This document shows positions 1,367 to 29,883 of a DNA stretch of 41,225 nucleotides, piece after piece. This DNA is from an uncultured bacterium. Its GTDB lineage: Bacteria; Vulcanimicrobiota; CADAWZ01. The stretch is taken from positions 1 through 41,225 of the forward strand of contig CADAWZ010000006.1 of the NCBI GenBank assembly GCA_902791745.1, given 5' to 3'. The position numbers and the translations under genes were made by a program. The notes under the pieces are model-generated. The model was not told the origin of the DNA, did no database searches, and saw only the letters and a program-made list of their open reading frames with translations. The number at the start of each line of letters is the position of its first letter. The first letter of the stretch is position 1.

Positions 1367-3028
1367 ATGAAAATTGATAAAAAATTATATATATTTATAT
1401 CTCTTCTTTTATTTTGTGAAATTTTCTTTTTTCGCAATGTCCTGTTTAACGATTCTTTGTTTGGGGATTTTGGAGATGCACGTCTTACAATGCTTATAAC
1501 AGAGCATTGGTATCGTTTTTTGCAAGGACTGGAAAAGATAAATGATTTGGGGATATTTTACCCTGCAGAAAATACTTTGGCTTATTCAGATATGTTTCTT
1601 GGATATGGCATAATTCATTTATTTTTTCGTTTTTGTGGACTTGATATGTTTATATCTTACAAAATAACTTTAATTTTAGTTCATATTTTGGGGGTATTTA
1701 GCTTATTTTATTTTTTAACTAAAGTATTAAAAGTTGATTATTTTTGGTCATTTTTTGGAACATCTGCATTTTCTTTTTCCTGTACTTCTGCAAATCAATT
1801 TTTTCATCCTCAATTAAATGTCGCTAATTTTATACCATTGTTTTTAATATTTTTTGTAAAATCTGTCCAAAATGTCGATAATCGTTTGAAAAAAAATATT
1901 TATATGTATTCTGCAATTTTTGTTGTTATACTTATATTATATACTGCTTGGTATGTTTTCTTTTTTTCAACACTATTTATATTTGTATTGCTTTTAGTAA
2001 GTTTTATTTTGTTTTCAGTTAATAAAATAAATATCAAAGATACTATAAAAAAATTTGGGTATGATATAATAGGTTATATTGTTTTTGCAATTTTATTGAT
2101 GATTCCGTTTTTAATGGCTGAACTTCCTGTCTTAAAAATGTCAGGTGATAGAAATTATACCCACATATTACAACTTTTGGGAAACTTTTTTAGTTATATC
2201 TATACAAGAAATTCGATTTTTGATTTTGTTTTAAAACCTTTGTCTAAAGATTGTCATATGATATTTATTCAAATGGGATTTTCTTTTGTATTGTTGATAG
2301 CTTTCTTTACATTTTTTATTTTTATATTTTTGAAAAAGAAAGAAAAAGAATTTTCTATTATTTTTTATAAAAGTATTTTTATTTCTTTGATTATTTGTCT
2401 TTTACTTCCTGTAAAGATACCATTTACAGATTCTTCACTTTGGTTTTTAGTGTATAAATTTTTTATAGGTGGAACATCTATAAGAATGCCTACCCGTTTT
2501 TTGTTTGTCTTATCACTTCCTATTTCAGTAATTTGTGCGATTTGTGGAAATATATTTTTTAATATAAAAGATATTGGTGATAAAAAATATATAACTATAT
2601 TGTCAATTATTTGTGTATTGCTGTTTGTTTCAAATATAAATACTGTTGGGGTTAACTCACAATATACAAGAGAACAGGAGATTGTATTTTTAAATTCTAT
2701 TCCTTCACCGCCAAAAGATTGTAAAGTTTTTTATTTAATAAATCCATATGTTAATCAATTAGGAAAAAATAGAAAAATTCTCAACAGTATAATTTATAGA
2801 GTAGCTGGACATGAAATAGCTTATAAATATAATTTAAAAATTATAAATGGGTATTCTGGATTAGTTCCTAAAGACTATGGAATTATAGAAGAATTATCTT
2901 ATTCTATGGAAAATTTTTATTCTAAAAATTATAAAAATAGTATAACTGAATGGATAAAGAGATATAATTTAGAAAATGTCTATACTTATGATATAAAAAA
3001 TCAAAAATGGAAAAAAGTTAAAAAATAA
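1367..3028 (+). CDS. Polytopic membrane protein, GT-C glycosyltransferase-like
   Basis: A 553-residue, very hydrophobic protein with about ten or more membrane segments and a soluble C-terminal tail (about residues 440-553). The first outer loop holds an acidic motif, GDFGDARL, with D34 and D37. An Asp pair there is typical of GT-C transferases that use lipid-linked sugars (the ArnT/PMT-like group). The overall pattern (aromatic-rich loops, FYPAENTLAYSD after the first loop) also resembles that group. No named subfamily is recognisable. It starts 8 bases after the phosphoesterase stop with no clear ribosome site. UDP-glucose dehydrogenase follows, so a role in surface glycan assembly is plausible but inferred from context. 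Confidence 0.6.
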   Translation: MKIDKKLYIFISLLLFCEIFFFRNVLFNDSLFGDFGDARLTMLITEHWYRFLQGLEKINDLGIFYPAENTLAYSDMFLGYGIIHLFFRFCGLDMFISYKITLILVHILGVFSLFYFLTKVLKVDYFWSFFGTSAFSFSCTSANQFFHPQLNVANFIPLFLIFFVKSVQNVDNRLKKNIYMYSAIFVVILILYTAWYVFFFSTLFIFVLLLVSFILFSVNKINIKDTIKKFGYDIIGYIVFAILLMIPFLMAELPVLKMSGDRNYTHILQLLGNFFSYIYTRNSIFDFVLKPLSKDCHMIFIQMGFSFVLLIAFFTFFIFIFLKKKEKEFSIIFYKSIFISLIICLLLPVKIPFTDSSLWFLVYKFFIGGTSIRMPTRFLFVLSLPISVICAICGNIFFNIKDIGDKKYITILSIICVLLFVSNINTVGVNSQYTREQEIVFLNSIPSPPKDCKVFYLINPYVNQLGKNRKILNSIIYRVAGHEIAYKYNLKIINGYSGLVPKDYGIIEELSYSMENFYSKNYKNSITEWIKRYNLENVYTYDIKNQKWKKVKK

Positions 3029-8013: not shown

Positions 8014-9792
8014 TTAATTAGCTTCTGGATATGTTCGACCATTTATTGTTTGATCTTCTACTGTTATTACTCCATCATAAGTGCAGTTTTCTTCTGTTAC
8101 ATTGTTATCAGGATTACCTATTAACAGGTCTATGTTCATACCATAATAACTTGTCGACGGTATAGAACCTACTGTAAATGTATTTGTATTTGTTATTGTT
8201 ACATTGTCTATTGTTATGTTTCCATTGTTTTTACAATTTGTGAATGTTGTTGATTGGCAATTTTCTACAATACCTGCTATTTTTAATCCGAAGTAGTTTG
8301 TATTTTTTACAACAATTTTTGCTTTGTTTGTACAATTATTAAAATTTGATCCTTGTGCTTGAAAACATAGTCCAGATATACCAAAATATGTTTTTGAAAA
8401 ATTATCAGTGCCATAATCATTAGGGTCTATTGTAATAAACTCTATATATGGTAAATTAGTTGTATTATCTGTATTGTCTGTATTATCTGCGTTGCTATTG
8501 TCTATAAAATATATGGAATTTTCTCCAATTGTTATATTTGTGAAATTGCTATTATAAGAGCCAACAAATAATGACAATATTGTCATATAATTAGGTAGTA
8601 TTTGAGTAAAAAATGGCATTACAGAATGTACAGTTATAATATTATTTAATGGTAGTTCAATAGATTTTCCATTTGCAAAAATTAGCCCATCTATTATGTG
8701 ATTGTCTCCGTCATAATCCCCTTTAAAGAAAAATTGTGCCAAGAAAGCATTAACATCTTCTGGTTCTATTGACATAATAGAACCCATATATAAATTTGCT
8801 ATGTTTGGATTATAATGTCCTATAGGGGTTATTCCCGTTCCATTATTGTAGAATGGGGCTTTTTCGTTAGTTGTTTCTATTGTTATGTCTTTGTCTTTTT
8901 CAGCCTTTACAATTTTTAATCCTGTCAAATGTGTAAAATCGAGGTCTTCAGTCTGTTTAAATTTTTTGTCTAAATATATATATGGAGAATCGTTAGGAAG
9001 TTCTGATGAATAATATGCTAAAATTTTATCTAAAACTTCATCTGGGAGATTATCTTGTGATGTATTTTCTGGTATATCATTGGAAAAAACTCTTATTAAA
9101 ACTTCGTTTGGGATAACCATTTTATTTATGTTCATAAAATGTCTTGGTTTAGAAATTATATATGGATCATCTGTTGTTCCAGAACCTCCACCAAATCCAG
9201 CTTCATTGTCTTTGCTATTTTCAAAATCAACATTAAAATTGCCATTTTCACTAATTACACCGTTGGCACTTGAAAAGTAATCAAGTAGATTTCCTTCGCT
9301 GTCATAAGTTAGAACTGCTTTTATTTTTACATTTTCTGCTTTGTCATTTATTGGAAGAGTAAATTTAGTTTTGTCATTTGCTGTTGGTTCTGCTTTTAAA
9401 ATTTCTTGGTCTTTTGGTTCTTCAGCTGTTTTTGCTGTGGATTCGACTTTATAGTAAATATCGGCTTTTGCAATTTTGTCAGCATCTTTGCTGTCAGTTA
9501 GTGTTAAAGTGATTTCATTATTAACTACTGGGTTTTCTTCGTTATTTTCGCTATTGTTGTTCTCGTTGTTGTTATTCTCGTTATTGTTCTCGTTGTTATT
9601 ATTTTCGTTGTTGTTTTGTTCTTCTTGTTGATTATTATTTTCTTGTTGTTGGTTATTTTGTTGTGCCAATAAATAATATAGTGCAGAATTATTTTGTGGA
9701 GTTGATTTGCCTCCACCACCGCATGCACTTGTAAATAATGCTGTTATAATTAGACAAATGCTCATTACTGCAATTTTGTAAATGTATTTCAT
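8014..9792 (-). CDS. Asn-rich surface lipoprotein with repeat-like C-terminal region
   Basis: A lipoprotein signal ends at TSAC (lipid cysteine C24), followed by GGGG. Residues about 35-95 are a low-complexity stretch of Asn, Gln and Glu, likely a flexible stalk. A small beta-rich domain follows (about 95-195). Next comes a Gly-rich GFGGGSGTTDDPYIISKPRHF junction, as often precedes GLUG-like or other right-handed beta repeats, and an Asn/Ile/Thr-rich region (about 260-592) consistent with beta-helix structure. I see no catalytic motif. AAAGGA precedes the ATG. A surface adhesin or binding role is a reasonable guess. It is a single-gene unit with its own terminator. Confidence 0.75.
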   Translation of the reverse strand: MKYIYKIAVMSICLIITALFTSACGGGGKSTPQNNSALYYLLAQQNNQQQENNNQQEEQNNNENNNNENNNENNNNENNNSENNEENPVVNNEITLTLTDSKDADKIAKADIYYKVESTAKTAEEPKDQEILKAEPTANDKTKFTLPINDKAENVKIKAVLTYDSEGNLLDYFSSANGVISENGNFNVDFENSKDNEAGFGGGSGTTDDPYIISKPRHFMNINKMVIPNEVLIRVFSNDIPENTSQDNLPDEVLDKILAYYSSELPNDSPYIYLDKKFKQTEDLDFTHLTGLKIVKAEKDKDITIETTNEKAPFYNNGTGITPIGHYNPNIANLYMGSIMSIEPEDVNAFLAQFFFKGDYDGDNHIIDGLIFANGKSIELPLNNIITVHSVMPFFTQILPNYMTILSLFVGSYNSNFTNITIGENSIYFIDNSNADNTDNTDNTTNLPYIEFITIDPNDYGTDNFSKTYFGISGLCFQAQGSNFNNCTNKAKIVVKNTNYFGLKIAGIVENCQSTTFTNCKNNGNITIDNVTITNTNTFTVGSIPSTSYYGMNIDLLIGNPDNNVTEENCTYDGVITVEDQTINGRTYPEAN

Positions 9793-11011: not shown

Positions 11012-12586
11012 TTACAAAACAACTTTTCTTTTTCTGTTATCAGCAACTAAAACAACTGTTATTATTTTTTTTCCTTCATTTTCATAAGTTTTGGCATATT
11101 GTTTTACTTGTTCTTCACCTTCTGCTCTTGCTTTTGGAACGCCTTTTGAACTCTTTGCGAATTTAAATTCGATTATAATTATTTTGTCATCGAATGGAAT
11201 TATTAAATCAGATCGACCTTCTGATGTGTAAGATTCTTGAAAAGAAGTTACACCTGCACCGCCACGAAGCAACATCACAAATAATGAACGATACCAATAT
11301 TCATTTTGATTTTTTGGAAAGTCATTGTAAGGAATCTTTCCTAAGGCATTGTTGAACATCTCAACTATATTTTCAATATTTCCTTCATTTAGTGCTTTTA
11401 TTGCTTTCCAAAGGTTATCTCCTAAAGGGATATATCTATCTATTTTATATATATCTTTCAAAAACAATCGAGATATTGATTTTTTTACTTCTTCATTTGG
11501 ATAATCAATAGTTAAAATTTCACTATCTCCTATTGATTCCCATTTTTCTATAGTTAAATATCCTGCTTGAAATAGAAAACTTTCCGGAGTTGCTTTTTCT
11601 ATTTCTTGTTCATCTGCAAAATCAGAAGTTACTTTTATATGTCTAAGTTTGTCAATATCGTTAATTTGATGTTGTTTAAAATAATCAACAAGGAAAGATG
11701 GAGTGCCAGAATTATACCAATAATTATTAAATTTTTGATCATTGAAGAAATTTAAAATAGAAAATGGATTATATACTCTTGTTTTTCCATCGAAAGAAAA
11801 ACCGTCATAATGTCTTTTTATTTTTTGTAATAATTCTTCTTTTGTTAAAGATAATTTTTGAGTTGCTTTTTCGAACCAATCACCAAAATTATCTTCAAGT
11901 TCCTGTTGTGTATATCCAACTATATCGCTGTATTCTTCTTTCATTGATATATCTTGTAAGTTGTTAAGCCCTGAAAATACACCAGCTTTGCTGAATTTAG
12001 AGACACCTGTTAACATAACAAATTTTAAATATTTACTACAACTTTTTAATACTATATAAAAAGAGCGTAAATATTTTCGCATTTCTTCTGCTTTTTCTAA
12101 ATCATTTATATTGTCAGTAATAGGTTTATCATATTCGTCAATAAGAACAACGACAGAACCAAATTCTTTATATAATTTAATTATTAAATTGTATAAAGTT
12201 ATATCTGCATTTTCATCAAGAGTTAATTTCAAATCGTTTAAATATAAATAGTTATTTAATTGATTAATGAGATAATAATTTAATTGTTCGGAATTGTTAT
12301 AAGATTTTAAAAGTCCCATATCGAGTGTAATAACAGGATTTGGGTTTTTATCTTGTTCTTTTACCCAATTTTCAGCATATAATCCATTGAATAGTTCTAT
12401 TTGACCTTTGAACATTGCTTCAAGTGTAGATATTGTCAATGATTTTCCAAATCTTCGAGGACGAGATAGAAAATAGCATTCCCCATTTTCTATCATTTGT
12501 AATATTTGTTTTGTTTTATCTATATAAAGATAATTTTCTTTACGAATTTTTTCAAATGTTTGAATACCGATTGGAAGTTTTTGCAT
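11012..12586 (-). CDS. AAA-ATPase-like / PD-(D/E)XK nuclease-like protein, copy 1
   Basis: Member of the AAA-ATPase-like plus DUF1703 (PDDEXK_9) family, 524 residues, function unknown. The N-terminal domain has an abbreviated P-loop, SRPRRFGKS (41-49, with K48), and Walker B VVVLIDEYDKP (D150, E151). A sensor-like VMLTGVSKFSKAGVFSG follows. The C-terminal domain has the nuclease-type core GRSD (D460) and EFK (E473, K475). The family is often multicopy in anaerobes; mobile-element or defence roles have been suggested but are unproven. A second copy lies at 28336-29883 with the same motif positions. The ATG is preceded by AAGGAG, which is partly buried in a predicted hairpin. Confidence 0.9.
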   Translation of the reverse strand: MQKLPIGIQTFEKIRKENYLYIDKTKQILQMIENGECYFLSRPRRFGKSLTISTLEAMFKGQIELFNGLYAENWVKEQDKNPNPVITLDMGLLKSYNNSEQLNYYLINQLNNYLYLNDLKLTLDENADITLYNLIIKLYKEFGSVVVLIDEYDKPITDNINDLEKAEEMRKYLRSFYIVLKSCSKYLKFVMLTGVSKFSKAGVFSGLNNLQDISMKEEYSDIVGYTQQELEDNFGDWFEKATQKLSLTKEELLQKIKRHYDGFSFDGKTRVYNPFSILNFFNDQKFNNYWYNSGTPSFLVDYFKQHQINDIDKLRHIKVTSDFADEQEIEKATPESFLFQAGYLTIEKWESIGDSEILTIDYPNEEVKKSISRLFLKDIYKIDRYIPLGDNLWKAIKALNEGNIENIVEMFNNALGKIPYNDFPKNQNEYWYRSLFVMLLRGGAGVTSFQESYTSEGRSDLIIPFDDKIIIIEFKFAKSSKGVPKARAEGEEQVKQYAKTYENEGKKIITVVLVADNRKRKVVL

Positions 12587-14292: not shown

Positions 14293-14831
14293 ATGAGCTC
14301 TTTCGATCAAGAAAAGATGACAACAAATACACCTATTAAATTTAAAGTAACCTCAAAAAATAGTAATTTTTTGTCATTTGTAGAAAAGGAGAAATTATTA
14401 AAAAAAAATCCTATTAAAAAATTTTATATTAAAGAAGATGTAAAAAATAAATTGTTAAATACTTTTGAATGGTTAATTGTAGGAGCATTGCTTTGGGTAG
14501 TATTAACAATTTCTTTACAGTTTTATCCTGATTTATCAATAATTCATTTGTTAGAGCAATATAAAGGAGAAGACTCCCTTATATTGCATATATATATAAA
14601 CAACCTTTTGTACTGCTTTATTTTTTTTGTTGTAAAGAATTTTGTTATACAATTGTAGTAGCATATACTTTATGGAAAATAAAAAATGAATGATTTGGAA
14701 ATCCTTTTGACCTAAATCATTGTAATACTACTACTAAATTTCGGAACTTTTTTAAATATCCTAATTCTAAGTCTTTGAATAAAAATAAATTAAAAGACTC
14801 AAAAAAGAAAAAAGTAAATTTAACTAAATAG
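14293..14831 (+). pseudogene. Decayed small membrane-protein gene
   Basis: The intact part (14293-14658, 121 residues) has a hydrophilic N-terminus and two membrane segments (about 58-80 and 97-121). It reads into stops after a run of eight T (14621-14628). One extra T would continue as CCKEFCYTIVVAYTLWKIKNE to a TGA at 14691-14693. The same frame then stays open for 45 more codons (FGNPFDLNHCN... to a Lys-rich tail, stop at 14829-14831). Two lesions in one otherwise continuous reading suggest a degraded gene. Alternatively, the short form may be real. No family is recognised and no good ribosome site is present. Confidence 0.45.
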
Positions 14832-17050: not shown

Positions 17051-18961
17051 ATGAAATTTAATTTATTTAAACACAGTGTTTTTATATTTTATATTTTATT
17101 ATCTCTGTTTTTATCTGGATGTGAAGTAGTTGGTGGCAATAAAATAGATCCTGCTGATATTCCTGATGAAAAAGCATTTGGCGAATTGTGGTTTAATATC
17201 TACGATAATTCAGGAAAAATCGGATATATAAAGACCAAAAGGGATAAAACGGAATTTGAAGGAAAGCCAACAGTTATATTTAGAAGTGAAACTTACATGA
17301 GAAATTCAACTGGGTATGATAAGACAATAGCAGAAACTTATTATACATATGATTTTCAACCTGTTCAAGAAGTAATTTCAGAAATTGGCACTTCCAAAAA
17401 TTCTTTTTCAATGTATAAAAAAGATAGAAATTTCGTTTTTCAATCCATTGTCGGAGAATCTTCATCTGAACTAAAATTGGAGATTCCAGAGGAAAAGATA
17501 TTTGCACCTCCAGATAGTCTTTTTATATCAAGAGTAAAAGATTATAGAGAGATAAAATGCGTGGATTCAAAATATCAAAAGATATATGATGTGAGCATAA
17601 AATTTTTAGAAAATGAAAATGTTTCTTGTGAATCAGGCAATATTTATGCTTCAAAATATCTTGTAAAATCTTCAATTCTTCCCGATTCTGAAATAAACAT
17701 TTGGATCGATTCACATGGAAATGAATGTATGTGTGAGATTGCAGGAATGAAGATTGTTCAGACTGATCAAAAGCATGCGGAAAGTAAAAATAATTCAAAA
17801 GCCGTTGCTGGTTCGATAATGTCTTCTCAGAAGATAGACCCTGACATCGTATATGCTTCTGATTCGATAAATATAAAATGTTTTGAATCCAAGGGAATCA
17901 AAAATTCTATACCAAGTGGTGCATATCAGACTATCTCAAAAGTTGGAAATACTAAATTCATAAAGCTTATTTCTGAAGCTAAAAACAGAAAAACTGAAAA
18001 ATATTCAGAAGAATCATTGAAGCCTTCACAATATATACAAAGTGATAATGGTCTTATAAAGCAAAAGGCTTTTGAGTTGAAAAAATCTGATTCAGCTTCT
18101 ACTGTAAAGGCTTTGTGTGCTTGGGTTCACGATCATATAAAAGAAAATGAATCAGGTACATATCTTTCAGCTTCTGAGGCTATGATTTCAGGAAAAGGTG
18201 ATTGCACAGAAAATGCACTTCTTTTTTCAGCAATGGCTCGAAGTGTTGGAATTCCTTCAAGAATTGTTTCAGGACTTATTTATAATGGATATGAATTTGT
18301 CTTACATTCTTGGTCAGAGGCTTATTTCAATAATAGATGGTATGGAGTTGATCCTGTTTATAAAAAAGTTGGATTAAATGCCTGTTATCTTCAGATATCT
18401 TATAATTACAATGGAGAATTATCTCCAGAGGACGGATTAAAATTATTAAATCTTGTAAATGGAATCAATTTAAATATTCGTTCTATCTATGTAAAAAATA
18501 AAGTGATCAAAATGGAAGATACCTCAAAATATTTTTTGGTAAAATCCGACATTGCAATGCAAAAACTTTGGGGCATTAGATTTAAAATACCTGCAAAGTG
18601 GAAATTTACTGCTTATGAATCAGTATCGTTAAAGGGAAAGAGAGGGGACGCACTTATTTTTATATCTCCTTTGACATCTGAAAATACTGATATTGGTTCT
18701 GCTGTCTCTGATTTGACAGGTTTTAAAGTGGAATCTTTTTATCTTGCTGATATGTTTCCAAGGACTTTGGGAAATGGAAGAAGAAGTCTTTTGTATTCTT
18801 CTTTCCCTTCAAAAACTGGTCAAGATTATACTTGTATGACATATATCACAGAAAATGATGATAAAGATAAAATGCTTTTAATTGTTTTGATTTGTCCACA
18901 AGATAAGAGTAATTTCTTGACATCTGATTTAGATGAAATAGATAATAGTCTGAAGTTTTAA
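17051..18961 (+). CDS. Lipoprotein with transglutaminase-like domain
   Basis: A 636-residue lipoprotein; the signal ends at LSGC with lipid cysteine C24. Residues about 40-330 form a beta-rich region with no recognised family. A transglutaminase-like cysteine protease fold covers about 335-450: GKGDCTE (C385), VLHSWSEAY (H419) and GVDPVY (D434) give the Cys-His-Asp triad. A C-terminal region (about 490-636) may be another beta domain. Many bacterial proteins of this fold are amidases or peptidases at the cell envelope. The gene follows mnmG closely and ends at a strong terminator, but the functional link to mnmG is probably only positional. Confidence 0.85.
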   Translation: MKFNLFKHSVFIFYILLSLFLSGCEVVGGNKIDPADIPDEKAFGELWFNIYDNSGKIGYIKTKRDKTEFEGKPTVIFRSETYMRNSTGYDKTIAETYYTYDFQPVQEVISEIGTSKNSFSMYKKDRNFVFQSIVGESSSELKLEIPEEKIFAPPDSLFISRVKDYREIKCVDSKYQKIYDVSIKFLENENVSCESGNIYASKYLVKSSILPDSEINIWIDSHGNECMCEIAGMKIVQTDQKHAESKNNSKAVAGSIMSSQKIDPDIVYASDSINIKCFESKGIKNSIPSGAYQTISKVGNTKFIKLISEAKNRKTEKYSEESLKPSQYIQSDNGLIKQKAFELKKSDSASTVKALCAWVHDHIKENESGTYLSASEAMISGKGDCTENALLFSAMARSVGIPSRIVSGLIYNGYEFVLHSWSEAYFNNRWYGVDPVYKKVGLNACYLQISYNYNGELSPEDGLKLLNLVNGINLNIRSIYVKNKVIKMEDTSKYFLVKSDIAMQKLWGIRFKIPAKWKFTAYESVSLKGKRGDALIFISPLTSENTDIGSAVSDLTGFKVESFYLADMFPRTLGNGRRSLLYSSFPSKTGQDYTCMTYITENDDKDKMLLIVLICPQDKSNFLTSDLDEIDNSLKF

Positions 18962-18964
18962 TTT

Positions 18965-19003
18965 AAATGGGGCTGTGAATGCAAAAAAACAGCCCCATTT
19001 TTA
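18965..19003 (+). terminator. Terminator after the transglutaminase-like lipoprotein gene
   Basis: AAATGGGGCTGT (18965-18976) pairs perfectly with ACAGCCCCATTT (18989-19000), followed by TTT. Its core recurs in the hairpin at 21882-21915. Confidence 0.9.
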
Positions 19004-19033
19004 GCAATCTGTCTTATTTTACTGTATAATAAT

Positions 19034-19663
19034 ATGTCGAAGAAAAGAAAGAAAATAATCAATAAAAATAAGAATTTAAAGAAAAATAATTTATATTGTA
19101 CTAAATGTGATTCTAATAATATATATCCAATTTCTCAAATAATAGTTAGTAACAAAAATAAAAAATCTGGATATGACTATAAAAAATATTGGTTTGTATT
19201 GAGAAAAATTAGTGATTTATTAAAAGAGAAAATTTTGTTTATAAGTTTTACACTTGATAAAATAAAATCTGATTTAATGAATTTAATATGGGTGTATTGT
19301 TATTTTATTCTTATTGTCTCTATATTGACAATTATTCCCTTCTCAATATTTATTAGTTTGGGTAATTTTCGTGTGGTATTTGCACTCGAGTTATCTATAA
19401 TTACATTTATTTTCTTTATAATTTTTTTTATGAAAAATTTGCGTTATAGTTCTTATAAGAAAAAGTTTTACAATACTTATTGTTGTCCTCATTGTGGTCG
19501 TTTATTTATTCCAAAAATTTATAAAGTTAGATTGAAAAAAAATACAAGTTTATTAGTAAAAATACATTTAGCTTATAAGAAATTGACAAGAGAGAAATTT
19601 TATAATGTTAGATATGTCAGTTATCAAGTAAAACAAGAAATGAAAAAATTGAGAATGAAATAA
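19034..19663 (+). CDS. Zinc-ribbon membrane protein, first gene of the LIM/DA1 operon
   Basis: A 209-residue protein, not a named family. The Lys-rich N-terminus leads to CTKC (C22, C25). Two membrane helices lie at about 83-108 and 113-134, and a second cysteine knuckle, YCCPHCG (C150, C151, C154), follows. The two CxxC pairs lie on the same side of a helical hairpin and could form one split zinc ribbon. The C-terminal 50 residues are basic. The ATG is only 3 bases after a TATAAT (19025-19030) and has no ribosome site, so either the message is leaderless or that box is not the promoter. The next gene starts 16 bases downstream. It may anchor or serve the two exported proteins. Confidence 0.72.
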   Translation: MSKKRKKIINKNKNLKKNNLYCTKCDSNNIYPISQIIVSNKNKKSGYDYKKYWFVLRKISDLLKEKILFISFTLDKIKSDLMNLIWVYCYFILIVSILTIIPFSIFISLGNFRVVFALELSIITFIFFIIFFMKNLRYSSYKKKFYNTYCCPHCGRLFIPKIYKVRLKKNTSLLVKIHLAYKKLTREKFYNVRYVSYQVKQEMKKLRMK

Positions 19664-19679
19664 ATAGAAAGGGGGAATT

Positions 19680-20834
19680 ATGCAAAAAAAACATATATTG
19701 ATTTTTATTTTGTCTTTTTTTTTCTTTTTACAAACATTGCCAGTTTTTGCACAGGGAGCACAGTGTGATTCTTGTGGAACATCTATAACTTATAGTAATT
19801 TTGGCTCAAAAACAAAAACAGGTTATCTGTGTAAAAATTGTTATCGTCAACAGCAGGAACAACCGCAGCAACAGGAGCAACCAAAACAAAAGCAGACACA
19901 ATCACAACAGCAAAAACAACAACAGATACCACAGTTACAACAACAGCAAACGCAAAAACAACAGCAGATGCAGGGAAGGCAGTGTGATAATTGTGGAACA
20001 TCCATAACTTATAGTAATTTTGGCTCAAAAACAAAAACAGGTTATCTGTGTAAAAATTGTTATCATAAACAGCAGGAGCATCCACAACAACAGAAACAAA
20101 CACAGAACCAACAGGTACAAACACAAAAGCAGGCACAACAAAAACAGCGGACAAAAAAACAGGAAGATAGAAAACAGCGTATATGTGCTGTTTGTAATAA
20201 TTCTATTGAAGCTGGAACAAAATATTATTTTAGTGCTGATAGACAGCCTATTTGTTTCAATTGTTTAGACAAATGTAAAGATAGTTGTAGAACTTGTGGA
20301 TTGCCAATTTTGCCTAATGGAGGAGTTAGAACTGGAAGTTGGATAGTTTGTACTCCTTGTTCAAAAGATATTATTGTAACAGATTCTCAATTAAAAGAAT
20401 GTTATGCTGAGGCTTGTAAATTTATGAATGAACATTTAGGATTAAATGTCCCTGTTCCTGTTGAAAATGTATATTTTTCAGATATCTCAGAGATGGGGGA
20501 TGGGCATGATGGAAATTTTGATGGTTATGCTATACGATTTCAAAAGGGTATGTCTAAACTTGATACTATTAGAGTTCTAATTCATGAATCTGCTCATGCT
20601 TGGATGAGACAATTAGAAAATCGTATGTATTCAGAAGGATTTGCTGAATGGTGTTCTTATAAATATTTTATGCATATAGGCGAAATTCAGTATTTTAATA
20701 ACCATAGACCTCCAAGGCATGAAAATAATTATTATTCAGCGGGACTTAGAAAAATGCTTGAACTTGAAAAGAAAATGACTCAAAAAGGGCTTTTGGAATA
20801 TGTCAAGACCCACAATGATTTTCCGAAGGAGTAA
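19680..20834 (+). CDS. Secreted LIM-like zinc-finger / DA1-like metallopeptidase, copy 1
   Basis: Exported by a signal peptide (1-24, ending VFA). It carries two near-identical single fingers (C29, C32, C51, C54 and C102, C105, C124, C127) separated by Gln-rich linkers. Next is a double finger of LIM type (C169, C172, C192, C195 then C203, C206, C224, C227) and a C-terminal peptidase-like domain (about 229-384). That domain has HESAH (H302, E303, H306) and a downstream SEGFAEW with E319 as the likely third zinc ligand. LIM fingers followed by an HExxH domain is the layout of DA1 proteins, known from plants as ubiquitin-activated peptidases. Bacterial relatives exist but their substrates are, to my knowledge, unknown. 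AAAGGGGG precedes the ATG. Confidence 0.82.
   Translation: MQKKHILIFILSFFFFLQTLPVFAQGAQCDSCGTSITYSNFGSKTKTGYLCKNCYRQQQEQPQQQEQPKQKQTQSQQQKQQQIPQLQQQQTQKQQQMQGRQCDNCGTSITYSNFGSKTKTGYLCKNCYHKQQEHPQQQKQTQNQQVQTQKQAQQKQRTKKQEDRKQRICAVCNNSIEAGTKYYFSADRQPICFNCLDKCKDSCRTCGLPILPNGGVRTGSWIVCTPCSKDIIVTDSQLKECYAEACKFMNEHLGLNVPVPVENVYFSDISEMGDGHDGNFDGYAIRFQKGMSKLDTIRVLIHESAHAWMRQLENRMYSEGFAEWCSYKYFMHIGEIQYFNNHRPPRHENNYYSAGLRKMLELEKKMTQKGLLEYVKTHNDFPKE
19761..19845 (+). repeat. 85-bp finger-coding repeat, copy 1 (copy 2 at 19980-20064)
   Basis: The segment encoding the first single finger (from QCD to the codon after NCY) is repeated at 19980-20064 with only 3 differences in 85 bases. This indicates a recent in-frame duplication. 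The Gln-rich linkers after each copy are also similar. Confidence 0.9.
19980..20064 (+). repeat. 85-bp finger-coding repeat, copy 2
   Basis: Second copy of the segment at 19761-19845; it differs at 3 positions (two in the codon after CD, one silent). Confidence 0.9.
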
Positions 20835-20837
20835 TAT

Positions 20838-21806
20838 ATGCAAAAAAAATATATATTAATTTTATTTTTGTTATTGTTTGTACTTTTGCCAATATCTGTT
20901 TTCGCAAGAAGTTATACTTGTTCTATTTGTGGAACTGAATTTACAAGGGGCGGTTTTACTGATGGAAAAAATATCTATTGTGGAAACTGTGCAGAGATAT
21001 TGTTGGAACAGGGTGATTATTATACAGATGATAAACCTTCTGTAAAAGTTGAAAACAAGATTGAAATTCCAAAGAGTAATAAAATAAAAGCAGGGCAAAG
21101 TAAATGTTCTGTCTGTAGAAAAATAATGATGACTGGCAGATATTATTTGACTTTAGATGATAGACCTGTTTGTGAAAATTGTTATAATAAATATCCTGAC
21201 AGATGTATGACTTGTAATATTCCTGTACCTTTAAAAACTGGGGCAAGATATGGTTCTTATACAACTTGTGATAAATGTTCAAAAGACATAATCGTTACGA
21301 AAGATCAGTTGAGACAAGTTTTTAATGAAATTTGTATATATATGAAAAAAGAATTTGGACTTACTGTTCCTGTAAACTCTGAAAATGTAAAATTTTCAGA
21401 TATGAGTATAATGTCAGATATGATTAGAAATAATATGTATGATGTTCCAAATGAATATGGCGAAAATACAATAGGTCTTTTTTCACAAGATGATATGGTC
21501 ATTTATATTCAAAAAGGGATGTCAAGAATAACTGTTTGTGATATTTTGACACATGAATCTGCTCATTCTTGGATGTATAAATATGGAAAACCTGGTGCTG
21601 ATTTACTTTTTTCAGAAGGATTTGCTGAATGGTGTAGTTATAAATATCTAACAAATATGGGGCAGACAAAATATTTGAAAGATAAAATGGAAAGAGAAAG
21701 TGATTTGTATAATGAAGGACTTAACAAGATGATTAAACTTGAAAAACAGATAGGTACTTCAAAAATCACTGAATATGTGAGAACACACAATAGATTACCT
21801 AAGTAA
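20838..21806 (+). CDS. Secreted LIM-like zinc-finger / DA1-like metallopeptidase, copy 2
   Basis: Paralogue of the gene just upstream, with one N-terminal finger instead of two and no Gln-rich linkers. The signal peptide is 1-23 (ending VFA). The single finger uses C28, C31, C48 and C51. The LIM-like pair uses C90, C93, C112, C115 and C123, C126, C144, C147. The peptidase-like domain covers about 149-322, with HESAH (H239, E240, H243) and SEGFAEW (E260). Both copies share CSKDIIVT after the last finger and a closing YV-TH sequence. It begins 3 bases after the previous stop, with AAGGAG inside the end of that gene, so translation is probably coupled. Keeping all metal ligands in both copies argues that both are functional. 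Confidence 0.82.
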   Translation: MQKKYILILFLLLFVLLPISVFARSYTCSICGTEFTRGGFTDGKNIYCGNCAEILLEQGDYYTDDKPSVKVENKIEIPKSNKIKAGQSKCSVCRKIMMTGRYYLTLDDRPVCENCYNKYPDRCMTCNIPVPLKTGARYGSYTTCDKCSKDIIVTKDQLRQVFNEICIYMKKEFGLTVPVNSENVKFSDMSIMSDMIRNNMYDVPNEYGENTIGLFSQDDMVIYIQKGMSRITVCDILTHESAHSWMYKYGKPGADLLFSEGFAEWCSYKYLTNMGQTKYLKDKMERESDLYNEGLNKMIKLEKQIGTSKITEYVRTHNRLPK

Positions 21807-21881: not shown

Positions 21882-21915
21882 AAAAATGGGGCTGTAATTT
21901 TACAGCCCCATTTTT
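21882..21915 (-). terminator. Terminator of the OPT transporter gene
   Basis: A perfect 15-bp stem (21882-21896 with 21901-21915) closes a 4-base loop. The A-rich left flank gives a T-run on the minus strand. It sits between convergent genes and is nearly symmetric, so it may stop both. Confidence 0.88.
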
Positions 21916-24494: not shown

Positions 24495-27400
24495 ATGGCA
24501 TTTAATCCAGAAAAATCTGTAACAATTACAGGTAACCAAGCTGCAAGTCATATCGCTTATGCTTTCAGTGAAGCAGCTGCTATCTATCCTATTACTCCTT
24601 CATCAGATATGGGGGAATTTGCTGATTCTTGGGCAAGTGAAGGAAGAAAAAATGTTTTCGGAGAGGTTCTTAATATTGTAGAAATGCAATCCGAAGCAGG
24701 TGCTGCAGGTGCAGTCCACGGATCACTTTCAGCAGGAACTTTGACAACAACATTTACTGCTTCTCAAGGTCTTCTTCTTATGATCCCTAACATGTATAAA
24801 ATTGCTGGTGAAATGCTTCCAACAGTTTTCCATGTTGCAGCAAGAGCTTTAGCCGCTCAGTCTCTTTCAATTTTTGGAGATCATTCTGATGTAATGGCTG
24901 TAAGAAATACAGGTTTTGCACTTCTTTCTTCAACCAATACGCAAGAAATCATGGATCTTGCAACAGTTGCACATTTAGCAACATTAAAATCACAAGTTCC
25001 TTTTGTACATTTCTTTGATGGTTTCAGAACTTCACATGAAATAACAAAAGTTAATGAAATTTCTTATGATACCTTGAGAGAACTCCTTGAACCCGAAATG
25101 GAATATGTAGAAAGATTCCGTCAGAGAGGTTTAAGACCAGAAAAGCCATATATGAAAGTAGGAGCTCAGAATCCAGATGTATATTTCCAAGGAAGAGAAA
25201 CTGTAAATAAATATTATGACGCACTTCCTGGTATTGTACAAGAATATATGGATAAAGTAGCAGCTAAGACAGGAAGACAGTATCATATATTTGATTACTA
25301 TGGCGATCCTGAAGCTGAAGATATAATTGTAGCAATGGGTTCTTCTTGCGAAGCAATAGAAGAGACAATAGACTACTTAAGAGCAAAAGGCAAAAAAGTT
25401 GGTCTTGTAATCGTAAGACTTTATAGACCATTTGCTGCTGAATTATTTGCAAAAACAGTTCCACAGTCTGTTAAGAGAATTGCAGTTCTCGACAGAACAA
25501 AAGAACCAGGTTCAACAGGCGAACCACTTTATCTCGATGTAGTTGCAGCTCTCAAAGGTAGAGATATTAAAATCATCGGTGGAAGATATGGACTTTCAAG
25601 TAAAGAATTCACATCTTCAATGGTAAATGGTGTATATAAACATTTAGCAGGCAAGGGAACACACAACTTCACAGTCGGTATTGACGATGATGTAACACAT
25701 CTTTCAATAGATTGTTCAGAAGAAATCATCACTGAACCAGAAGGCACAATAAGTTGCACATTCTGGGGACTTGGTAGTGATGGAACAGTCGGTGCAAACA
25801 AAGATTCTATCAAAATCATTGGTGATAACACTGATCAATATGCACAGGGTTATTTTGTATATGATTCAAAGAAATCTTATGGCAGCACAATTTCTCACTT
25901 GAGATTTGGAAAGAACAAAATAAGATCAACATATACAGTAACACACCCAGATTTCGTTGCATGTCATAACCCTGCATACTTAGGCAGATTTGATATGATC
26001 GGCGGAATCAAAGAAAATGGTGTATTCCTTCTCAACTCTGAATGGACAGCTGAAGAAGCATTTAAGCACCTTCCAGCTGATATGCAGAAGATCATCATTG
26101 ACAGAAAGATTAAATTCTACACAATCGACGCTCTAAAGATTGCAACAGAACTTGGTCTTGGTGGAAGAATCAACACAGTTATGATGACAGCATTCTTCAA
26201 GGTTTCAGGCGTACTTGAAGAAAATCACGCTATTGAACTTATCAAAAAGTCAATCAAAAAGACTTATGCTAAGAAGGGCGACGAAGTCGTACAAAAGAAC
26301 TGGACTTGTGTTGACAGAGCATGTGAATCTTTGATAAAAGTAGATGTTCCTGCAGAAGTAAATTCAGTATATGTAGAACACAAACTCATTCCTGAAGATG
26401 CAGATACATTTGCAAAGAATATATTTGAACCAATCGCACATCTCAAAGGCGACGGAATCCCTGTTTCTCATATGTCATTTGATGGCTCACTTCCAACAGG
26501 AACAGCAAAATATGACAAGAGAGGAATTGCTCCAAGAGTTCCACAGTGGGTAAAAGAATCTTGTATCCAGTGTAATATGTGCGTAAGCTCATGTCCACAT
26601 GCTGCAATCAGAGCAAAGATTTTGACAGATGAAGAGTTAAAGAATGCTCCAGCAACATTTAAGACAGCTGAAATTAAACCAAAGGCAGTTGAGGGCAAGA
26701 AATTTGTTCTTCAAGTTTATGTTGATGATTGTACTGGTTGCGGTGTCTGTGTTGAAACTTGTATCGCAAAGAATAAAGCTCTTGAATTCACAACACTTGA
26801 AAAAGCAAGAGAAAATGGCGAAACAGAAAATTATAAATTCTTTGACAATGCAACAGACAATATTGATGCAAACACAAAGACAATCAAGAATCTTGGATTT
26901 GTAAAACCATTGTTTGAGTTCTCAGGTGCTTGTGCAGGTTGTGGTGAAACACCTTATGTCAAGATGCTTTCACAGTTGTTTGGTGAAAGAATGATTGTTG
27001 CAAATGCAACAGGTTGTTCATCAATTTATAGTGGTTCATTCCCAAGTATTCCATATACAAAGACAAAAGAAGGAAGAGGTCCAGCATGGGCAAATTCACT
27101 CTTTGAAGACAATGCAGAATATGGATTTGGTATGAGATTAGCTGTTGATTCAAAGAGAGCTGCTTTGAAGAACGCAGTAGAAGCATTTATTGCTGAAGTT
27201 CCAGAAGGTGCATTTACAGATGTTCTCAAAAAAGCTCTTGATCGCTGGGATTGCAAAGAAAAATCAGACATCGAAGCCCAGGCTGAAATTGCAAAAGTTG
27301 CTGATGAATTCATCAAGACAGCAGAAGGCAAAGCAAAATGCTTGGCAATGACAATCAAGAGTTTTGCTGATTACTTTGTTGACAAGAGCGTATGGTGTAT

Positions 27401-28022
27401 CGGTGGCGATGGTTGGGCTTATGATATCGGTTACGGTGGTCTTGACCATGTTGTAGCTTCTGGTAAGAATATCAACATTCTTGTAATTGATACAGAAGTC
27501 TATTCAAATACTGGTGGTCAGTCTTCAAAATCAACACCAATTGGTGCTATTGCTAAATTTGCAAGTAACGGTAAGAGAACACCAAAGAAAAATCTTGGCT
27601 TTATGTGCATGAGTTATGGCAATGTATATGTAGCACAGATCGCTCTTGGTGCAAATCGTCAGCAGGCAATGAAAGCATTTGCAGAAGCTGAAGCCTACAA
27701 TGGAACATCTATAATTATAGCCTATGCTCCATGTATTGCTCACGGTATCAATATGCAGAAGACTCAAGTCGAGCAAAAGAATGCTGTTGACAGTGGATAT
27801 TGGCCACTTTATAGATATAATCCAGCATCAGACAAACCATTGACTTGGGAAACTCCAGAGCCAAAATCAGAGTTCAACGCTTTTGTAAAGGGTGAAAATC
27901 GTTATAAACTCTTGATTAAGAAATATGGTGCTGAAACAGCTGAGAAGATTTTTGAAGAAGCAGAAAAAGATGTAATCCGCAGAATGAATGCTTTCAAAAA
28001 TGTTCTTGAAATGCAGAAATAG
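24495..28022 (+). CDS. nifJ: Pyruvate:ferredoxin (flavodoxin) oxidoreductase, single chain
   Basis: Central enzyme of anaerobic pyruvate use: pyruvate plus CoA gives acetyl-CoA, CO2 and reduced ferredoxin. All domains are in one chain of 1175 residues, the usual size. The N-terminal domain has AAIYPITPSSDMGE. Two ferredoxin-type [4Fe-4S] motifs lie in the middle (CIQCNMCVSSCPH and CTGCGVCVETC). The C-terminal thiamine diphosphate domain has GACAGCGETPYVK, ATGCSSIYSGSFPS, GGDGWAYDIGYGG and YSNTGGQSSKSTPIGA. A GGAGG site lies 10 bases before the ATG. Codon choice looks more biased (many AAG, ATC, GAC) than in its neighbours, as expected of a highly expressed gene. It is monocistronic, with its own terminator. 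Confidence 0.97.
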   Translation: MAFNPEKSVTITGNQAASHIAYAFSEAAAIYPITPSSDMGEFADSWASEGRKNVFGEVLNIVEMQSEAGAAGAVHGSLSAGTLTTTFTASQGLLLMIPNMYKIAGEMLPTVFHVAARALAAQSLSIFGDHSDVMAVRNTGFALLSSTNTQEIMDLATVAHLATLKSQVPFVHFFDGFRTSHEITKVNEISYDTLRELLEPEMEYVERFRQRGLRPEKPYMKVGAQNPDVYFQGRETVNKYYDALPGIVQEYMDKVAAKTGRQYHIFDYYGDPEAEDIIVAMGSSCEAIEETIDYLRAKGKKVGLVIVRLYRPFAAELFAKTVPQSVKRIAVLDRTKEPGSTGEPLYLDVVAALKGRDIKIIGGRYGLSSKEFTSSMVNGVYKHLAGKGTHNFTVGIDDDVTHLSIDCSEEIITEPEGTISCTFWGLGSDGTVGANKDSIKIIGDNTDQYAQGYFVYDSKKSYGSTISHLRFGKNKIRSTYTVTHPDFVACHNPAYLGRFDMIGGIKENGVFLLNSEWTAEEAFKHLPADMQKIIIDRKIKFYTIDALKIATELGLGGRINTVMMTAFFKVSGVLEENHAIELIKKSIKKTYAKKGDEVVQKNWTCVDRACESLIKVDVPAEVNSVYVEHKLIPEDADTFAKNIFEPIAHLKGDGIPVSHMSFDGSLPTGTAKYDKRGIAPRVPQWVKESCIQCNMCVSSCPHAAIRAKILTDEELKNAPATFKTAEIKPKAVEGKKFVLQVYVDDCTGCGVCVETCIAKNKALEFTTLEKARENGETENYKFFDNATDNIDANTKTIKNLGFVKPLFEFSGACAGCGETPYVKMLSQLFGERMIVANATGCSSIYSGSFPSIPYTKTKEGRGPAWANSLFEDNAEYGFGMRLAVDSKRAALKNAVEAFIAEVPEGAFTDVLKKALDRWDCKEKSDIEAQAEIAKVADEFIKTAEGKAKCLAMTIKSFADYFVDKSVWCIGGDGWAYDIGYGGLDHVVASGKNINILVIDTEVYSNTGGQSSKSTPIGAIAKFASNGKRTPKKNLGFMCMSYGNVYVAQIALGANRQQAMKAFAEAEAYNGTSIIIAYAPCIAHGINMQKTQVEQKNAVDSGYWPLYRYNPASDKPLTWETPEPKSEFNAFVKGENRYKLLIKKYGAETAEKIFEEAEKDVIRRMNAFKNVLEMQK

Positions 28023-28335: not shown

Positions 28336-29883
28336 ATGCAAAAACTTCCAATAGGTATTCAAAGTTTTGAAGACATTCGTAAAGAAAATTATCTTTATGT
28401 TGATAAAACAAAACAAATATTAAAAATGATAGAGAATGGAAAATGTTATTTTTTTTCTCGCCCTCGCCGTTTTGGAAAATCTTTAACAATATCTACACTT
28501 GAAGCGATGTTTAAAGGTGAGGTTGAATTATTTAAAGGTCTTTATGCTGAAGAATGGGTAAAAGAACAAGCAAAAAATCCTGCAGGTGTCATAAGAATTG
28601 ACATGGGACATTTAACAGCTTATAAAAATAGTGACGAATTAAATGATTCTATTGTATTTTATCTTGAAAAGTTTGTTGAAAAAAATAAATTAGATGTCTC
28701 TTTAAATCAAAAAGCAGGCAAATTATTATTAAACATAATTAGTGTACTATATGAACAATTTGCTTCAGTTGTAGTTTTAATAGATGAATATGATAAGCCA
28801 ATTACAGACAATATCGATAATTTAGAAAAAGCAAATGAAATGCGAGAGGCTCTTCGTCCTTTTTATGGTTTGCTAAAAGATTGTAAAGAAGTAAAATTTG
28901 TCTTTATAACAGGGATTTCTAAATTTAGTAAAACTGGAATTTTTTCTGGATTCAATAATTTGAAAGATATATCTATGACTGAAAAGTACAGCGATATTGT
29001 CGGATATACTCAAAAAGAACTCGAAGATAATTTTGTAGATTTCTTTGAACAGCCAATGAAAAAATTTTCTTTTACTAAAGAAGAATTATTGGAGAAAATA
29101 AAAGATTATTATGATGGTTTTTCATTTGATGGTAAAGTAAGAGTATATAATCCATTTTCAGTATTAAATTTTTTTGATGATTCAAATTTTGATAATTATT
29201 GGTATGATTCAGGAATGCCTTCTTTTCTTGCTAAATATTTAAAAGAACATAAAATTAAAGAACCAAAAGAATACATCCAAAAAAGAGTCACTTCAGATTT
29301 TATAAGTTCTCAGGAAATAGAAAATACTTCTGTAGAGAGTTTTTTATATCAGGCAGGTTATTTGACAATAAAAGAAAGAAGAGGTAATATTCTTATTCTT
29401 GATTATCCAAATGAAGAAGTTCGCAGTTCAATGGATAGACTTTATCTTGATAATTTTTATAATATAAAAGATTTTGCTGGATTTAGTAATGATATTTGGT
29501 TATCTTTAGAGTCAGAAAATATTTCACAGATAGTAAATATATTTAACGAAGCCTTAAAAGGTGTTCCTTATGATGATTACAAAAATAGGGATGAGGCTTG
29601 GTATCGATCTTTATTTTTAATGTTACTTAGTGGAGCAAAAATAACATATTTTTCCGAAGTTCATACATTTAAAGGTCGTTCAGATGTTGTAATAGTATTT
29701 AAAGAAAAAATAATAGTTCTTGAATTTAAATTTGCTAAAAATTCAAGAGGTATATCTTATCAAAGGAAAAAAGGAAAAGAGCAGATAGAGTCGAGAGATT
29801 ATGCTTCTACTTATAAATCAACTAAGAAAGTAATAACAGCTGTATTTATTGCAAATGATGAAAAAAGGCAAGTTGTAATATAA
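28336..29883 (+). CDS. AAA-ATPase-like / PD-(D/E)XK nuclease-like protein, copy 2
   Basis: Close paralogue of the gene at 11012-12586 (515 residues); the first 60 residues are nearly identical. P-loop SRPRRFGKS (K48), Walker B VVVLIDEYDKP (D150, E151) and the C-terminal GRSD (D450) with EFK (E463, K465) are all kept. The middle third diverges more, including the DNYWYDSGMPSFL region that is typical of the family. AGGAG lies shortly before the ATG. The leader differs completely from that of copy 1. Function is unknown for the family. The intact motifs in both copies argue against decay. Confidence 0.9.
   Translation: MQKLPIGIQSFEDIRKENYLYVDKTKQILKMIENGKCYFFSRPRRFGKSLTISTLEAMFKGEVELFKGLYAEEWVKEQAKNPAGVIRIDMGHLTAYKNSDELNDSIVFYLEKFVEKNKLDVSLNQKAGKLLLNIISVLYEQFASVVVLIDEYDKPITDNIDNLEKANEMREALRPFYGLLKDCKEVKFVFITGISKFSKTGIFSGFNNLKDISMTEKYSDIVGYTQKELEDNFVDFFEQPMKKFSFTKEELLEKIKDYYDGFSFDGKVRVYNPFSVLNFFDDSNFDNYWYDSGMPSFLAKYLKEHKIKEPKEYIQKRVTSDFISSQEIENTSVESFLYQAGYLTIKERRGNILILDYPNEEVRSSMDRLYLDNFYNIKDFAGFSNDIWLSLESENISQIVNIFNEALKGVPYDDYKNRDEAWYRSLFLMLLSGAKITYFSEVHTFKGRSDVVIVFKEKIIVLEFKFAKNSRGISYQRKKGKEQIESRDYASTYKSTKKVITAVFIANDEKRQVVI

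Follow-up and report, generated by a model that had tools for sequence, protein, structure and literature searches.

What could two neighbouring bacterial proteins do outside the cytoplasm, if their zinc fingers and HExxH domain follow the plan of plant DA1? DA1 peptidases set plant organ size, and DA1 activation is understood only through ubiquitin. The question is raised by three adjacent genes, here called MEM, P1 and P2 (Table 1), in the window, i.e. the whole stretch of 41,225 nucleotides from an uncultured bacterium that was analysed. We consider it probable that P1 and P2 are exported zinc-dependent DA1-like peptidases, P2 being active and P1 fast-evolving and perhaps weak or inactive, and that the last finger is integral to the enzyme while the outer fingers serve for binding.

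Table 1. Features of the window (positions are those of the window; empty cells, no value given).
Feature	Position	Strand	Details
Frame without Pfam match	1367-3028		553 aa
Frame without Pfam match	8014-9792		592 aa
AAA-ATPase_like + PDDEXK_9 gene	11012-12586	-	paralogue of 28336-29883
Frame without Pfam match	14293-14658		121 aa
Lipoprotein (LSGC lipobox) with transglutaminase-like core, upstream neighbour	17051..18961	+	PF01841, E 6e-21
Intrinsic terminator 5' of MEM, following the transglutaminase-like lipoprotein gene	18966..18999	+	folding of the strand
MEM	19034-19663	+	209 aa
P1	19680-20834	+	384 aa
P1 catalytic domain	20367..20831	+	HESAH aa 302-306, Glu 319
P2	20838-21806	+	322 aa
P2 catalytic domain	21276..21803	+	HESAH aa 239-243, Glu 260, Y291xxG294, Glu 302
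Intrinsic terminator 3' of P2	21827..21853	+	terminator scan
Pyruvate:ferredoxin oxidoreductase	24495-28022
AAA-ATPase_like + PDDEXK_9 gene	28336-29883	+	paralogue of 11012-12586

The basic description given in the earlier note was borne out: two adjacent genes each encode a signal-peptide-like N-terminus, fingers, HExxH and a glutamate within SEGFAEW, and a two-helix CxxC membrane protein precedes P1 at a distance of 16 bases. The export signals, called by eye plus a hydropathy rule, are MQKKHILIFILSFFFFLQTLPVFA before QG in P1 and MQKKYILILFLLLFVLLPISVFA before RS in P2, both ending in VFA. In P1 the signal is followed by two single Cys4 fingers embedded in Gln-rich linkers (CxxC at 29/51 and 102/124), a finger pair (169/192 and 203/224) and the DA1-like HExxH domain; in P2 one single finger (28/48) and a pair (90/112 and 123/144) precede this domain. 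A 171-bp tandem duplication, with units that are 84% identical, includes the first finger of P1 and its Gln-rich linker.

The three genes are closely packed, with only 3 bases between P1 and P2, and both peptidase genes have good Shine-Dalgarno sequences (AGGGGG for P1, AAGGAG for P2). The terminator upstream of MEM (12-bp stem, 12-base loop, then a T-run; -19.5 kcal/mol, z -3.5) has a counterpart at the same place in a second species of the genus (L031), as does the one downstream, found there 3' of the P2 orthologue, which supports the view that MEM, P1 and P2 form a separate transcription unit. The genes of mnmG and of the transglutaminase-like lipoprotein, the latter being the upstream neighbour in L031 too, lie beyond the first terminator, and because this terminator intervenes the lipoprotein gene belongs to a different transcription unit. 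A promoter-like TTAGCA-TATAAT (19001-19030), which ends 3 bases before the MEM start codon ATG, was not used; promoter-like sites are hardly commoner in the region than in shuffles (43 vs 35). As to the surroundings, the hairpins at 18966-18999 and 21885-21912, which flank the trio, share an identical 11-base stem arm (AATGGGGCTGT/ACAGCCCCATT) present at only these two sites in the whole genome. Near the second hairpin the synteny with the related genome G001 breaks, an OPT transporter lying beyond the break in the window and a large P-loop protein in G001. A third relative of the two AAA-ATPase_like + PDDEXK_9 genes of the window is located downstream of the G001 finger-peptidase cluster.

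The earlier note had gone further and proposed a three-gene envelope module that includes a membrane zinc ribbon; neither conservation of such a module nor the ribbon as an envelope partner was supported. A single envelope complex, in which the MEM ribbon would meet the fingers, could indeed be suggested by the common transcription unit bounded by terminators and by the same neighbours in a second species; however, we regard it as very unlikely. MEM has two transmembrane helices (~91-109 and ~116-134), CxxC motifs at 22 and 151 on the same side and tails with 21 and 21 Lys+Arg, and the positive-inside charge bias predicts both knuckles to be cytoplasmic, across the membrane from the exported P1 and P2. 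Furthermore, the homologue search revealed MEM in this genus only (orthologue 66% identical over ~190 aa, dN/dS 0.35), so that the three-gene order is a genus-level arrangement; the search for a module conserved beyond the genus found none. MEM also occurs alone, a second, degenerate copy in G001 being far from any peptidase, beside a BspA-type LRR gene, and most finger-peptidases have no MEM. G001 itself has the same gene order, with three peptidase genes, plus a fourth upstream of mnmG.

The assignment of the two proteins to the plan of LIM fingers plus HExxH, known from DA1, held for DA1 and failed for LIM. A canonical LIM domain consists of two fingers joined by a 2-residue linker. In the family of P1 and P2 the CxxC-to-CxxC distance within a finger is usually 15-18 residues and the linker between fingers has 6-8 residues (mode 6; 7 in P1 and P2), which rules out an ordinary LIM domain; the fingers are thus evenly spaced single Cys4 units, LIM-like at best. 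Against the LIM profile a P2 finger reaches 21.8 bits, under the cut-off of 22.9, and the match covers the second half of the profile. As for DA1, the family profile aligns with the plant protein from the last finger to the C-terminus (hhalign 99.5%, E 1e-22), and the catalytic part with the junction, nearly all of the finger part being omitted, gives 98.6%; the plant sequence used as query was validated solely by a Pfam match of 323 bits, which spans the DA1 model in full. Pfam matches at E below 0.01 among 30 members include DA1 in 13, LIM in 11 and M1 peptidase in 10. P2 scores 13.2 bits with the DA1-like profile PF12315 and P1 is not listed, both being under the curated cut-off of 25 bits, while four relatives from three genomes (L045, L046, L047 and L050) pass it with 26-33 bits; thus PF12315 is reached by the wider family and not by P1 and P2 themselves, whose homology to DA1 rests on the family profile.

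The modelled fold looks gluzincin-like, as the earlier note would have it. The AlphaFold2 model of the P2 catalytic domain (21285-21803; five sequences in the input) reached pLDDT 89.5 and pTM 0.88, the full-length P2 model being weaker (pLDDT 74), and places HExxH and the glutamate on helices 81-100 and 107-124, respectively. In Foldseek the nearest solved structures belong to M1 aminopeptidases, M9 collagenases and selecase (highest probability 0.91), at E-values of 0.09-0.3, none of which is significant singly; the sequence profile matches M1 aminopeptidases (aminopeptidase N) in the active-site region with E 8e-6. Taken together, the model, the Foldseek list and the profile matches support a gluzincin-type domain well, although no single fold match is significant, and since the profile aligns with DA1 and the closest solved structures are gluzincins, the label "DA1-like peptidase" holds. 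A viral structure library yielded nothing significant for P2.

Relatives of P1 and P2 were retrieved from 29 of 58 genomes of the phylum by protein search, the carriers filling 12 families (f1-f7, f10-f13, f15), with no relatives in f8, f9, f14 and f16 of this sample. Searching 149 genomes with the profile of 30 catalytic domains gave about 105 matches; 29 genomes have them, with 1 to 8 copies each, and 7 are in the genome of the window. The downstream glutamate is present in 71/71 homologues aligned on HExxH; in the 30 aligned members HExxH and this glutamate never vary, and EGFAxW, YGxGL and a Glu towards the C-terminus hardly do. Such conservation rules out a chance origin of the HExxH motifs. 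No other columns of the family alignment come near the catalytic motifs in conservation, and many relatives have no fingers at all. This bears on the reading that P1 and P2 are zinc-binding or adhesive envelope proteins dominated by their fingers, peptidase activity no longer being the point: the fingers range in number from 0 to about 8, a unit was freshly duplicated in P1 and Cys4 sites are numerous, as such proteins would require, yet the conservation of the catalytic motifs, the absence of fingers from many relatives and the low dN/dS of the P2 catalytic part (0.10) make it clearly unlikely.

Several observations concern the neighbours and forms of family members. L028:6743-9178 and L032:3895-5505 encode a lipoprotein form with about 8 fingers and a DA1-like domain; in L028 a second copy follows 3 bases downstream and a TPR protein gene, with a homologue in L032, precedes the pair. 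Ser/Thr protein kinase-like genes adjoin DA1-like peptidase genes in several families, and lytic transglycosylases do so in f13 (L066, L068, L071, L075, L079, L082). Neighbour clustering gave no protein-kinase gene beside P1 or P2, and we make no claim of a conserved partner. A phage or plasmid origin was rejected: tblastn gave no match in either collection, and the viral-contig scan gave no confirmed relative.

The two copies are not equal. P2 has an 89% identical orthologue in L008, and the catalytic part of P2 is 95% identical to its orthologue, with the dN/dS value given above; the catalytic part of P1 is only 68% identical to its orthologue, at dN/dS 0.54. On these figures P2 is under purifying selection, and P1 is relaxed and fast-evolving. 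The distance from the first His to Glu is 17 residues in P1, the shortest of ~70 homologues (at least 20 in all others measured), and a comparison with its orthologue shows that about 20 residues in the neighbourhood of HExxH are missing from P1. The metal ligands are kept in both copies, as the first reading of the sequence had held, but with the catalytic domain so shortened the intactness of P1 as an enzyme is doubtful, and it may well be impaired. Since the third gene of a three-gene finger-peptidase array (L047:7597-8736, G005:C40) has RELGN in place of HExxH, with its five fingers intact, divergent or inactive tandem members occur at least two times. Tandem finger-peptidase neighbours recur in families f1, f3, f6 and f13.

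It is conceivable, if unlikely, that the tandem copies P1 and P2 represent a pair of an active and an inactive member, so that P2 cuts whereas P1, pseudoenzyme-like, binds or regulates P2 or its substrate via its fingers and a dead or weak domain. The lost residues, the record-short spacing and the high dN/dS of P1 would agree with this, as would the RELGN gene that kept its fingers and the recurrence of tandems. However, the P1 orthologue in G001 is normal (spacing 22, about 6 fingers), hence P1 does not show a conserved state and may be no more than a decaying copy, and other tandem pairs keep two intact motifs. The divergent members, at least two cases, do not by themselves demonstrate a rule by which active and inactive tandem members would be paired.

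As to the place of action, P1 and P2 would be exported judging by their N-termini, and signal peptides, called in the same way, are found in most finger-bearing members. Two members are lipoprotein-like (LMPTGC in L004/L028, LLTGC in L032). Close homologues keep both the zinc ligands and the signal peptide, while in a subgroup from f12/f15 a finger stands almost at the very start and a signal peptide seems to be lacking, so that export is not universal in the family; this finger-first group may be cytoplasmic. Omp85 is encoded in four related genomes, as in diderms. In these four genomes DsbA, DsbB and VKOR, the oxidases covered by the search, had no match, E. coli and other controls being positive; the genome of the window is ~90% complete. 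Where the periplasm lacks these oxidases, Cys4-zinc sites would be able to persist. The pyruvate:ferredoxin oxidoreductase of the window fits an anaerobe without being proof of it, and the organism is probably anaerobic.

Pfam scans of the window proteins and of family members gave no match to a ubiquitin-interacting motif, which, together with the export signal, agrees with the earlier view that a secreted pair would not be activated by ubiquitin as in plants. The same scans bear on another reading, in which P1 and P2 are DA1 relatives secreted in the manner of effectors, with eukaryotic proteins of neighbours in the gut or rumen as their targets. The nearest named record is the isolate RUG13580, where "RUG" stands for rumen genome, and the proteins are kin to a peptidase of the eukaryotic ubiquitin system. 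Yet besides the lack of a detected ubiquitin-interacting motif no linked delivery system was seen, and the family spans 12 bacterial families, genomes of up to 8 Mb and apparently cytoplasmic as well as lipoprotein forms; we consider this reading extremely improbable.

Coming back to exported DA1-like peptidases, we suppose the following mechanism. In P1 and P2 a run of Cys4 fingers of the treble-clef type would lead into a compact gluzincin domain with HExxH and Glu. The producing bacterium is a diderm and probably an anaerobe, and the two proteins would work either on its surface or in its periplasm, where, no disulfide-forming pathway being detectable, the thiol-zinc fingers would stay metallated. 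The last finger, fused to the catalytic domain in a near-fixed register as in plant DA1, is probably needed for the active fold. If the catalytic His of DA1 is taken as residue 418, as we assume, Cys274 lies in the finger that immediately precedes the catalytic domain; by position, the counterpart of this finger in P1 and P2 would be the last one. The mutation of this cysteine (C274Y) abolishes DA1 activity (PMC5322733), and because this finger is common to DA1 and the present family it may be an integral element of the enzyme. For the outer fingers, which differ in number from copy to copy, binding of substrate or partner proteins is the most likely role. P2 would be the conserved, active enzyme, and P1 a tandem copy that evolves fast, has a shortened core and is perhaps weak or inactive. 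A more general scheme of regulated periplasmic proteolysis by tandem DA1-like finger-peptidases, with active and degenerate members paired in a disulfide-free periplasm and zinc fingers serving as protein-recognition modules, seems to us rather unlikely. An exported bacterial branch that has the last finger and the catalytic domain without the ubiquitin-binding part would provide a minimal system for the role of this finger in the enzyme, and it raises the question of zinc fingers outside the cytoplasm in bacteria lacking Dsb/VKOR oxidation.

Compared with known gluzincins, the M1 aminopeptidases and M9 collagenases, the family has the same pair of active-site helices, HExxH lying on one and Glu on the following one; the sequence match is confined to the active-site region, and the domain of about 175 residues is devoid of their extra domains. 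The likeness to LIM proteins (PF00412; e.g. LIMS1/PINCH) is limited to the match of a P2 finger to the second half of the profile, the fingers of P1 and P2 being repeated and evenly spaced in contrast to the bipartite LIM. In plant DA1/DAR proteins (PF12315; Dong et al., 2017, PMC5322733), as in the family, a Cys finger directly precedes the HExxH + Glu domain, which ends in YGxG...G...L, and the profile alignment spans the whole finger-peptidase stretch. The spacing of the DA1 active-site motif, HEMMHX15EE (PMC5322733), equals that of P2, the Glu of which occupies the position of the second E. On the other hand, P1 and P2 differ from the plant proteins in having a signal peptide and extra single fingers, and no detected ubiquitin-interacting motif, canonical LIM or plant-type inserts; by strict membership, lacking the first two, they are not DA1 proper. 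Among bacteria, proteins of Roseiflexus sp. with four LIM-like CxxC/H pairs are described as highly similar to DA1 in the account of PMC5322733, which cites Burroughs, Iyer and Aravind (2011), and very probably belong to the same broad family; as far as that account goes, the exported tandem arrays, the lipoprotein forms and the HExxH-less forms may not have been described before. With those of Roseiflexus, bacterial members of the family had been reported before; P1 and P2 are a variant specific to their own lineage, which has multiplied the copies.
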